From positions 1-51,481 of the forward strand of contig CAJXMH010000022.1 in assembly GCA_913056345.1 (NCBI GenBank): DNA of 51,481 nt, given 5' to 3'. The notes under the pieces are model-generated. The model was given only the letters and a program-made list of their open reading frames with translations. It did not search any database and was not told where the DNA came from. Positions 33,128-36,373 of the stretch are shown piece by piece. The stretch comes from an uncultured Flavobacteriales bacterium (GTDB lineage: Bacteria; Bacteroidota; Bacteroidia; Flavobacteriales_E; Vicingaceae). A program made the translations under genes and the position numbers. Numbering within the stretch: the stretch's first letter is position 1; each line of letters opens with the position of its first letter.

Positions 33128-33733
33128 ATGAGTTTAATTGATCGTTTATTAAAAGACCTTTTTCCCGACAGGGAAACTACCACCAAGACTTCTCCTATAA
33201 AGGAGGTTTTGGTAAAGGAAATGATCAAGCGTAATCAAGTTTTCTTGGATGGTTATGAAGCGTGGAAAGCTGCTGAAATGCAAATGGGTGTATTGGCACA
33301 TCTTAAAGAAGCTTCTGAAATTAAATATTCCAACCCTGATGCTGAGGTAAATTTCTTTCACTATCGAGATGTGCAGTCAAATGGATTTTATTTTCACGGC
33401 GAAGCTCCTTGGACAGCAGAGGATTACTCTTATTTGATTCATCACTTTATTGATGTATTGAAAAAGGAAGAGTACTATTTGAATAATGCTAAAAGAGAAG
33501 TAGTTGAGGAAGAAAAGCAATTAAAAACAGTTGAGCACTTTTATTTAAAACCAAAGCTTAAGTACAGAAGGGAAGTACCTTACGAGCAACTGTATGGGAA
33601 CGTTGAGATTGAACACCGTTTAGTAGAGGATAAAACCAATTTGGTTAAGGTAATGGTTAATGTATATAACGACCGAAACTTTAAAAAGGCTGCCAATTTC
33701 GAAGAGCTCTTGCCAAAATTTTGGCTACCTTAA
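33128..33733 (+). CDS. Unknown protein, first gene of a two-gene unit
   Basis: Not recognised. 201 residues, soluble, no signal peptide or membrane segment. The N-terminal helix reads MSLIDRLLKDLFPDRETTTK. A mixed central region has FFHYRDVQSNGFYFHGEAPW, and a highly charged helix (DVLKKEEYYLNNAKREVVEE) leads to a beta-rich C terminus (VEHFYLKPKLKYRREVPYEQ). It starts after a 229-base A/T-rich gap (32899-33127) in which I see no gene or strong terminator. Only 4 bases separate it from the kinase-like gene, so the products probably act together. Confidence 0.7.
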   Translation: MSLIDRLLKDLFPDRETTTKTSPIKEVLVKEMIKRNQVFLDGYEAWKAAEMQMGVLAHLKEASEIKYSNPDAEVNFFHYRDVQSNGFYFHGEAPWTAEDYSYLIHHFIDVLKKEEYYLNNAKREVVEEEKQLKTVEHFYLKPKLKYRREVPYEQLYGNVEIEHRLVEDKTNLVKVMVNVYNDRNFKKAANFEELLPKFWLP

Positions 33734-33737
33734 CTTT

Positions 33738-34787
33738 ATGAATACTATTTCTAAGAAGAAAGAGCATTTTCCGGTAAAGTTGCCTCTGCGAAAATATTTG
33801 AAGAAGTATTCGAGGGAGCATAAATTACCTATCGGTTATAATGATCTAGATCATTATCAACATGCTGTTTCGCTTTACGATAAGGCAGGTAAAGATACCC
33901 TTTGGGAAACGGTCTATTACAGTCCGTCTGAGATGGAGGAGGTTAACCAAAAATTATGCAAGGTATACTCACAGCTCAAAACCGAAGGTGATACAACTGT
34001 AATGGAACACCTTTTTGTTGACCGCATTGATTATTGCCCTTTTGGAAATTCCAAGCCATTTAGGGTTCGGATTACCAATCGCTTCAATGATAACTACGAT
34101 TACTTCTATGTAAAGAAAGCAGATGCTTCAAGGATTTATGGTTTGGAGTTAGAGCACATACTTTCTCCTAATAGGATTAGTTACATTGTAGATGGTAATA
34201 CAATCATTGAAGACCACATTGCAGGGATTCCCGGCGATGTTTTTATAAAAAATTGGTTAGATGATCCGCAATTAAATAGGACCCGCTTAGCTAAAGAGTT
34301 TGTGAAATTTAATGAGCGCTGTTTTGTTCGCCTGCTAGGCGATATGAGGTCTTATAACTATGTTGTGGACATCACTCCTGACTTTGATGATATTCAATAT
34401 CGAATTAGAGCCATTGACTTTGATCAACAATGTTATGAAGGGATGAAAAGCATGTACCTTCCTCAATTCTTTAAAGACAACAATCCCATTGTAGAGTTTT
34501 GCATGGAATTGTTGAATCCCGAGACCATCAGACAGTACCAAAAAGAAGAACGGGCATTAATTGCTAATCGGATAAAAGTTTCACGTTATCGCTTAAAAGA
34601 CCTTTCAGACTGCATGGAAGAAGAGACCTTAAGTCAACCAGACAAGGTTGAGCACTTAAAAAAAGAGCTTGCAGATCACTTTGAAGACGTCAGTTTTTTA
34701 GAATGTGAGAATATGGGAGAAATACTGCGAACGCGCTTATTCATATTACTCTACAACAACAAGGATATTCTAATTGACGGGATTTAA
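33738..34787 (+). CDS. Unknown protein with kinase-fold hallmarks
   Basis: 349 residues, no signal peptide. No family is recognised by name. In order, the sequence shows possible elements of a protein-kinase/aminoglycoside-phosphotransferase fold. A lysine strand lies at about 121-130 (DYFYVKKADA) and an acidic helix at 134-141 (YGLELEHI). The hinge-like EDHIAGIPGD is at 158-167. A catalytic-loop-like LLGDMRSYNYVVD with Asp202 and Asn207 comes next, followed by a metal-site-like RAIDFDQQ with Asp227. The tail is helical. The start is ATG at 33738; the longer open frame overlaps the upstream gene and is unlikely. This assignment is inference; the spacing D202-x4-N207 and the later DFD are the strongest points. 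Confidence 0.7.
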   Translation: MNTISKKKEHFPVKLPLRKYLKKYSREHKLPIGYNDLDHYQHAVSLYDKAGKDTLWETVYYSPSEMEEVNQKLCKVYSQLKTEGDTTVMEHLFVDRIDYCPFGNSKPFRVRITNRFNDNYDYFYVKKADASRIYGLELEHILSPNRISYIVDGNTIIEDHIAGIPGDVFIKNWLDDPQLNRTRLAKEFVKFNERCFVRLLGDMRSYNYVVDITPDFDDIQYRIRAIDFDQQCYEGMKSMYLPQFFKDNNPIVEFCMELLNPETIRQYQKEERALIANRIKVSRYRLKDLSDCMEEETLSQPDKVEHLKKELADHFEDVSFLECENMGEILRTRLFILLYNNKDILIDGI

Positions 34788-34858: not shown

Positions 34859-36373
34859 TTAGTAAAAAACAGCTTCTTTGCTCAATGGTCTTTCTTCAAT
34901 TAGCCATTTAAAACCACGGTAACGTAAATCCTTAACTGGATCAAGCTCTCCCATAGGATGCATAGTTGCATCAGGCTGGTTAATAAAGGAGATGGATTGA
35001 ATCGCCTCATTTGCCAACTTAATATCAATGTCACTGCTCTCTGCTACATTAACGCCAATGAATTTGTCCTCTTCGTCCTGCCCCCAATAAGTTGTTTCGC
35101 CATTACCACGCACTTGAATCAGGTTTAGTTTGCCCTCCTTAAAATAACCTGTCATTTCCTTGCCTTTTATTTGGTTGAAACGAATGCTATCAACTTCTGA
35201 AATGATGAAAGCGTTGGTTTGTAGAAAGAGTGAATGAATTTTGCTGTTTGCTGTTCTAATGTCAATCCGCTCAGCTGTAAGTTGATTTTGTTCTGACCAT
35301 AATACAGGTGAGCCATGCAGCTCAATGGTGCTGTCGCTCAAAGCGTATGAAATTGAATCACATTTTCCTTGCAGGTCTTGCTTGTATATTTTAACGCCAT
35401 AATAGGCCAATAAAGAACGTTCATTCTCCTTATTGGTGAAGACTTTGAAAGTGTCGGCATGCATAAATAAAGAGTCTGAGTCAAATATTTGAGTAAGCAA
35501 GGCTTGCCCATGAACAATTGCACTATCTTTTTTTTCAAATATTTCACCGTATAGACCATTTACAAGAACCTGCTCAGCAGTATCCGTAATTTGAATTGAG
35601 CCAATAGCTCTACCATAGCCAATATTTCGGTCGTAGTAAAGGGTGTCTCCTTCCAACTTTCGGCCATCAGAGATCAAGTAAGCATTTTCGTAGTATTGCG
35701 AAATGTCCTTTGGTGTATCATACCAACCTGTTTCACAATAAATAAGGTTACTATCTCCTTCAATGATTGTAGGTCCTAAAAAGTTGACCATTTCATTTTT
35801 ACTGAAATACTTCAAAGTGTCCGACCGCATGATAAAGTCAGGATTACTAAGGGTAACAGAATCTTTGAAAAAGAACAAGGACTGGTTGGCTAGGAAATAT
35901 CCAATTTCGCTAACAAGCAGGTTACTGTCATTCTTACTTTCAATTACACCACCAGTATTATACTGAGCCACATTTGTTAGTCGATTGTAAAGAATTGCAT
36001 CAGTAATTAAGGTAAAGTCGCTATTTTCTAGTTTAACTACTTTACCTTCAACTTCTGCCAAACGGCTGTTACCATTGTAATGTAGAACATCGCCGTATAA
36101 GTTCAGCGTGTCGCCTTGATTGATCCTTATATTGCCGTAGGCATCAATTAGATTTTCATCTCGGTAAAAAAGGGCGCTGTCGCAGTACATTAAGGCTTTT
36201 TGGTGTCTAAACTTAACGTTGCCTCTTAACTTTTGAGCTTTTTTTCCGTCTACAGTTAATCCAATTAGCTCACTAGCATCAATGATCTCGATCTGCTCTT
36301 TTTTTTGAGCCCATAATGCTGAGAAAAGCAAAGAAAGTAGCAGCAGTAAACCGCTTTTTAAGCTACTGTCCAT
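34859..36373 (-). CDS. OstA-like protein (LptA/LptD N-domain family)
   Basis: 504-residue periplasmic or secreted protein of the OstA/LptA fold, thought to help carry lipopolysaccharide to the outer membrane. Signal peptide KSGLLLLLSLLFSALWAQ. The repeating beta-jellyroll pattern is clear: AQKLRGNVKFRHQKALMYCD, NLIDAYGNIRINQGDTLNLY, GDVLHYNGNSRLAEVEGKV, and later TYWGQDEEDKFIGVNVAESS. Lengths near 500-600 are typical in Bacteroidota. The ATG overlaps purA by 16 bases, so translation is coupled. It is the last gene of the fur-STAS-purA run. Confidence 0.87.
   Translation of the reverse strand: MDSSLKSGLLLLLSLLFSALWAQKKEQIEIIDASELIGLTVDGKKAQKLRGNVKFRHQKALMYCDSALFYRDENLIDAYGNIRINQGDTLNLYGDVLHYNGNSRLAEVEGKVVKLENSDFTLITDAILYNRLTNVAQYNTGGVIESKNDSNLLVSEIGYFLANQSLFFFKDSVTLSNPDFIMRSDTLKYFSKNEMVNFLGPTIIEGDSNLIYCETGWYDTPKDISQYYENAYLISDGRKLEGDTLYYDRNIGYGRAIGSIQITDTAEQVLVNGLYGEIFEKKDSAIVHGQALLTQIFDSDSLFMHADTFKVFTNKENERSLLAYYGVKIYKQDLQGKCDSISYALSDSTIELHGSPVLWSEQNQLTAERIDIRTANSKIHSLFLQTNAFIISEVDSIRFNQIKGKEMTGYFKEGKLNLIQVRGNGETTYWGQDEEDKFIGVNVAESSDIDIKLANEAIQSISFINQPDATMHPMGELDPVKDLRYRGFKWLIEERPLSKEAVFY

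Follow-up and report, generated by a model that had tools for sequence, protein, structure and literature searches.

An unnamed kinase-like protein family conserved across the Bacteroidota, with a predicted fold closest to PI3/PI4 kinases

We identified two neighbouring genes, both on the forward strand and 4 bases apart, in the window analysed here (a 51,481-nucleotide stretch from a genome of 2.92 Mb). The upstream open reading frame, P1 (positions 33128–33733), encodes a protein of 201 amino acids predicted to be of alpha/beta type, which belongs to a family without a name and is a lineage-specific neighbour of the second gene. The second gene, Q (positions 33738–34787), encodes a putative kinase of 349 amino acids with a PI3/PI4-kinase-like fold. 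The layout agrees with that given in a preliminary description of this DNA. We place the start of Q at the ATG at 33738, as in its homologues; the start of the longest open reading frame, at 33660, falls within P1. The next gene downstream of Q (34859–36373) is on the opposite strand.

Q was aligned with 106 homologues, and then with 136 including sequences from other classes of the phylum (about 47–100% identical to Q). Across the 136 homologues the lysine, acidic helix, catalytic aspartate, asparagine five residues on and metal-binding aspartate keep the order found in kinases. K126, D129, R132, E137, E139, D202, N207, D227 and D229 are invariant, as are Y134, E158, H160, G163, P165, G201, M203, I226, F228 and Q230. 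The preliminary description had picked out K126, E137, E139, D202, N207 and D227; these are at the places it gave, and all are invariant. We do not ascribe the invariance of six preselected positions to chance because only 52 of the 349 columns are invariant; a random spread of such columns would give this result with a probability of about 1e-5. The kinase reading had been made to depend in particular on conservation of Asp202, Asn207 and Asp227, and none of the 136 homologues departs from them.

The predicted ATP-binding lysine strand passes directly into a helix in the segment K126-x-A-D129-x-S-R132-x-Y134-G-L-E137-L-E139 (34113–34154, forward strand), where K, D, S, R, Y, G, E and E are invariant, most of them also across the 136 homologues. 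The lysine had been left as residue 126 or 127; in the 106-homologue alignment residue 127 varies among R, K, N, Q, I and T, and the conserved lysine is therefore K126. The hinge-like segment, EDHIAGIPGD (residues 158–167; 34209–34238, forward strand), was likewise proposed earlier, and its E158, H160, I161, G163 and P165 are invariant, all but I161 being among the residues listed above for the 136 homologues. The catalytic loop, LLGD202MRSYN207YVV (34332–34367, forward strand), contains the proposed catalytic base, D202, and a proposed Mg ligand, N207. Residue 204 is R in 97 and H in 39 of the 136 homologues, and the loop therefore reads GDM(R/H)xxN. A glycine had been said to replace the histidine of the HxDx4N arrangement; by HxD numbering that position is held by Leu200, whereas Gly201 is indeed present one place on, immediately before D202. 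The predicted metal-binding motif, I-D227-F-D229-Q (34413–34427, forward strand), lies at the DFG position with Asp replacing Gly, and I226 to Q230 are invariant. It opens a strongly conserved stretch, residues 227–248 (IDFDQQ...YEG...YLPQ..K.N), many residues of which are invariant or nearly so.

Homologues of Q are encoded by 27 of 60 close relatives, 127 of the 395 sampled genomes of the class and, over the phylum as a whole, 80 of 296 genomes, and they also occur in other Bacteroidota classes. There is almost always one copy per genome. In a scan that took a single genome from each species, at least 586 stretches encoding Q homologues were returned; 80 were kept, all from Bacteroidota. A tree of 80 named Q sequences groups them by bacterial family with 11 label changes, the minimum possible. 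Searches of plasmids, phages and viral contigs gave no match, and we rejected the idea of a mobile element or defence gene. Q is thus a chromosomal, mostly vertically inherited gene. Among 77 named Bacteroidota loci no neighbour of Q is conserved beyond the genus or close family, and the gene neighbourhood gave no hint to function.

Several local variants were seen. In Chitinophaga, and in this group only, MlaE/MlaF-like (phospholipid transporter) genes begin within about 60 bases after Q (L086, L088, L098, L106 and L123). A second, divergent Q subfamily (47–52% identity) replaces the typical form in some genomes of the same bacterial family; its catalytic residues are kept at loci L021–L027 (genomes G044, G029, G014, G024, G017, G027 and G034). 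Genome G147 has two copies of different type, one of them L277 on G147:C3. In G305, all that is found of Q is a pair of short fragments interrupted by in-frame stops (G305:C1:3158145-3158407), probably a pseudogene, and the gene can therefore be lost. Long open frames in some genomes had raised the possibility of domain fusions; we rejected these, as the upstream frames contain no plausible fused domain.

The structure of Q was predicted by AlphaFold2 from the alignment of the Q family, with no template. The model is confident (pLDDT 93.1, pTM 0.90) and has a two-lobed kinase fold, with a sheet and a helix in the N-lobe and a helical C-lobe; the absence of these lobes had been named as grounds for abandoning the kinase reading. 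A kinase fold is very likely. Foldseek against the PDB gave Vps34 as the top match (E 2.4e-5), with PI3 kinases as the five best matches; PI3K delta, LegK4, RSK2, Bud32 and titin kinase were among those that followed Vps34. We then realigned Foldseek's best 1000 chains, and only these, with VIA-align 2. In the best 50 matches listed, all 50 are PI3K, PI4K or PIKK (Z 11.6–13.2). Vps34 aligns over 274 residues, spanning model residues 15–345 (Z 13.2, rmsd 4.5), and PI4K-beta, Tel1 and SMG1 score Z 13.2, 12.6 and 12.1, respectively. APH and HipA folds are not among the best 50 listed; with the candidates drawn from Foldseek's best 1000, this is no evidence against them, and an APH, choline-kinase or HipA fold is still conceivable. 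In a library of viral structures the model matched kinases as well as PI3 kinases, most of them from giant viruses. The closest known fold of Q, as modelled, is best called PI3K/PIKK.

At the level of sequence, no usable family was found for Q or P1 in Pfam, NCBIfam, PADLOC or PHROGs. Weak hits to Tmemb_cc2, Topo-VIb and Hemerythrin were rejected as chance because they differ between members. The PI3/PI4-kinase profile (PF00454) matched neither Q nor any other protein of the host genome. Neither it nor APH is among the families listed for 57 aligned Q relatives at E<=1. The APH profile (PF01636) has two hits in the host genome, both at other loci, and none to Q; the sole hit of HipA_C (PF07804) is again another locus. 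No HipB-like neighbour was found, P1 having no family match. A PDB sequence search with Q alone returned nothing, and one with the Q profile returned no kinase, only two unrelated hits (E 0.025 and 0.8). Profile–profile comparison with hhalign was not significant for any set, with P-values of 0.37 for PI3K/PI4K/TOR (six PDB-verified members, shallow profiles), 0.06 for APH, 0.15 for HipA and 0.4 for CotH. The method has little power here, because in the same test known kinase-like families hardly recognised one another. In the comparison with kinase, APH and HipA profiles suggested earlier, no P-value was significant, though the PI3K and APH alignments both placed the Q catalytic loop in register. 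We found no paper on the Q family in a literature search that had most subscription journals outside its coverage.

Because no profile assigns a family and the profile–profile comparisons are not significant, we regard Q as a new family within the kinase-like superfamily rather than a member of PF00454. The invariant catalytic residues, the confident kinase-fold model and the lack of a family match lend good support to the earlier suggestion of a divergent kinase with no named family. Bacteria continue to yield kinase-fold families without a name, as is clear from the atypical kinase families in Legionella, which include LepB, AnkK and MavQ together with 13 new families (PMC9758233). Those are largely effectors of one genus, whereas Q is chromosomal, conserved across the phylum and not found in plasmids or phages.

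The motifs of Q were compared with those of known kinases. The comparison strings were taken from PDB sequences matched by yeast Vps34, Pik1 and Tor sequences; for Vps34, the stretch used and 5dfz chain C show 100% identity, and the PI4KB and TOR strings also come from PDB sequences. In Vps34, PI4KB and TOR the lysine is followed one or two residues on by (D/E)-D-(L/I)-R-Q-(D/E), the catalytic loop reads (V/L)GDRHxxN or VKDRHxxN, and H(I/A)DFG forms the metal motif. The equivalents in Q are the K126 to Y134 part of the lysine segment, LLGD202-M-(R/H)-x-x-N207 and A-I-D227-F-D229. Common to all, in the same order, are K, an acidic residue at +3 and R at +6, then D with N at +5, then DF. With the PF00454 type more generally, Q shares K, acidic +3, R +6, G-D, N +5 and IDF, but the L, Q and D of LRQD and the Gly of DFG are absent. 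The K126–E139 segment is comparable to the KxG(D/E)DLRQD of PI3 kinases and TOR, and Gly201 before D202 corresponds to the glycine preceding Asp in (V/L)GDRHxxN, the form of the loop in Vps34 and TOR. The PI3/PI4 kinases and PIKKs (PF00454; Vps34, PI4K-beta, Tel1, SMG1 and TOR) resemble Q both in fold, along almost the entire model (Z about 12–13), and in having a lysine directly followed by a (D/E)-x-x-R helix, a D-x-(R/H)-x-x-N loop and a D-F motif. Q differs from them in falling below Pfam detection, in standing alone at 349 amino acids without helical, C2 or FAT domains, in having DFD for DFG and in showing no sign of an inositol-lipid context.

Against the PI3K placement, no sequence-level link joins Q to PI3/PI4 kinases, its hinge (E-x-I-x-G-x-P) resembles that of APH-type kinases as much as that of PI3K, and Asp stands in place of the DFG glycine. 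Q might instead belong to the APH/choline-kinase branch (PF01636) as a kinase of small molecules or head groups, with the PI3K ranking a product of superfamily-wide features and of the content of the Foldseek candidate set. APH kinases belong to the same superfamily and have a GD-x-(H/R)-x-x-N loop and a similar E-x-I-x-G hinge; EDHIAGIPGD and the GD-x-(R/H)-x-x-N loop of Q are equally APH-like. Among the profile P-values, none of them significant, that for APH was the lowest, and its alignment had the catalytic loop in register. However, Foldseek's best matches and all 50 VIA-align matches listed are PI3K, PI4K or PIKK, the helix comes immediately after K126 in the style of PI3 kinases, Leu stands in place of the APH His before GD, and PF01636 recognises two other host proteins without recognising Q or being listed for its relatives. 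We consider this alternative unlikely. HipA (PF07804) is another bacterial kinase-like fold, but Q lacks its profile match, its N-terminal domain and a detectable HipB-like neighbour. On balance, kinship of Q with PI3K/PIKK appears probable.

We propose that Q is probably an ATP/Mg-dependent phosphotransferase, a stand-alone catalytic domain of PI3K/PI4K/PIKK type, of about 350 residues and conserved across Bacteroidota. Conservation, predicted fold, distribution and the lack of association with mobile elements were computed; from these we infer catalysis and the role of every residue, and kinase activity is likely. ATP would bind between the two lobes, with K126 holding its phosphates, positioned by the acidic helix that directly follows (D129, E137 and E139), and the 158–167 segment acting as the hinge that holds the adenine. 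As the catalytic base, D202 would activate the hydroxyl of the acceptor; Mg would be bound by N207, D227 and probably D229. Alternatively, Q could keep the kinase fold and carry out a different reaction, as do the kinase-like families of SelO (AMPylation) and SidJ (glutamylation). A different reaction would fit the unusual DFD motif and the very strong conservation of the non-canonical Y134, Q230 and E158/H160. The canonical Lys, Asp, Asn and Asp are nevertheless intact and in their usual order, there is no sign of flipped nucleotide binding, and we judge a change of chemistry improbable.

As a phosphotransferase, Q would have its 227–248 segment at the position of the PI3-kinase activation/substrate loop. 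Conservation of this segment across the phylum suggests one old, constant substrate. The fold match to PI3K and PI4K raises the possibility that Q is a phosphoinositide kinase with inositol lipids of bacteria as its substrates, but PIKKs, which share the PI3K fold, phosphorylate proteins, and Q has no match to a lipid-binding domain family. Some Bacteroidota do make inositol lipids (PMC9246714). Myo-inositol-phosphate synthase, however, was not found in 67 of the 80 Q-bearing genomes, including the host, and its overlap with Q (13 of 80) is that expected by chance (odds ratio 1.0, p = 1.0, 296 genomes), which makes phosphatidylinositol or a phosphoinositide an unlikely substrate. Uptake of inositol from outside by these hosts is possible. 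Overall, a phosphoinositide kinase seems very improbable, and we favour as substrate a conserved housekeeping molecule, either a soluble protein or a small molecule or metabolite.

An intact, near-invariant kinase site is thus present in about one third of the sampled genomes of the class, and in other classes, yet neither Pfam nor NCBIfam has an entry for it; these bacteria therefore probably carry out a basic phosphorylation that has gone unrecorded. Since the closest folds found are PI3K/PIKK and not the bacterial APH or HipA, a solved structure of Q would also bear on the origin of the PI3K/TOR/ATM branch. We tentatively raise the possibility, still doubtful, that the PI3K/PIKK branch includes Q as a native bacterial member passed on by vertical inheritance, a housekeeping kinase throughout the Bacteroidota with a new substrate. 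If true, Q would be the counterpart in bacteria, standing alone, of the catalytic domain of eukaryotic PI3K/TOR/ATM, and it might hint at where that domain came from.

Q and P1 had also been suggested to form a new system of a kinase and its partner, a dedicated pair in which P1 might be partner or substrate; we also considered an antitoxin role for P1. The 4-base spacing favours this, as does the close adjacency in the host's family, where P1 lies directly upstream of Q in 13 of 13 sampled genomes with a typical Q (74–100% identity). That adjacency is, however, confined to the host's own bacterial family. P1 homologues, which form a family separate from Q, occur in 57 of the 395 class genomes; both genes are present in 21, against about 18 expected (Fisher p = 0.44, 395 genomes). 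P1 is unlinked to Q in G014 (which has a divergent Q), G040, G120, G222, G250 and others; it occurs without a detected Q in G018, G038, G052 and G234, and most genomes with Q lack P1. The question of whether the two always occur together is thus answered in the negative, each being found without the other, and P1 matches no antitoxin or other family. With linkage limited to one family and co-occurrence at chance level, the claim of a new system is not supported, and a dedicated two-protein system is unlikely. Q represents a genuine kinase family, spread through the phylum and without a name, and not a novel type of system.

The P1–Q pairing is a local arrangement, and P1 is an occasional neighbour of Q rather than its fixed partner, not needed for the general function of Q. 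Judging from their adjacency, P1 may be co-transcribed with Q in the host lineage, and a lineage-specific regulatory role is possible. The neighbourhood of P1 has no theme. At L278 (G018:C121), P1 stands without Q although G007, the other sampled member of the genus, has both genes adjacent; Q in G018 has been lost, has moved or falls in a region that was not sequenced. For P1, structure prediction gave a confident alpha/beta model (pLDDT 92.7) with no clear fold match (Foldseek E >= 0.012; highest VIA Z 6.9, less than unrelated models reach). The P1 family has a conserved pattern, SNGF...YLKP...QL(F/Y)GN...KxxAN.Y.DR. Weak, non-significant fold matches of P1 recur to DcrB, the EagR chaperones (SciW and EagT6), PsbP and Mog1 (Z about 4.4–6.8), and DcrB, SciW/EagT6, PsbP and Mog1 may constitute one fold group.
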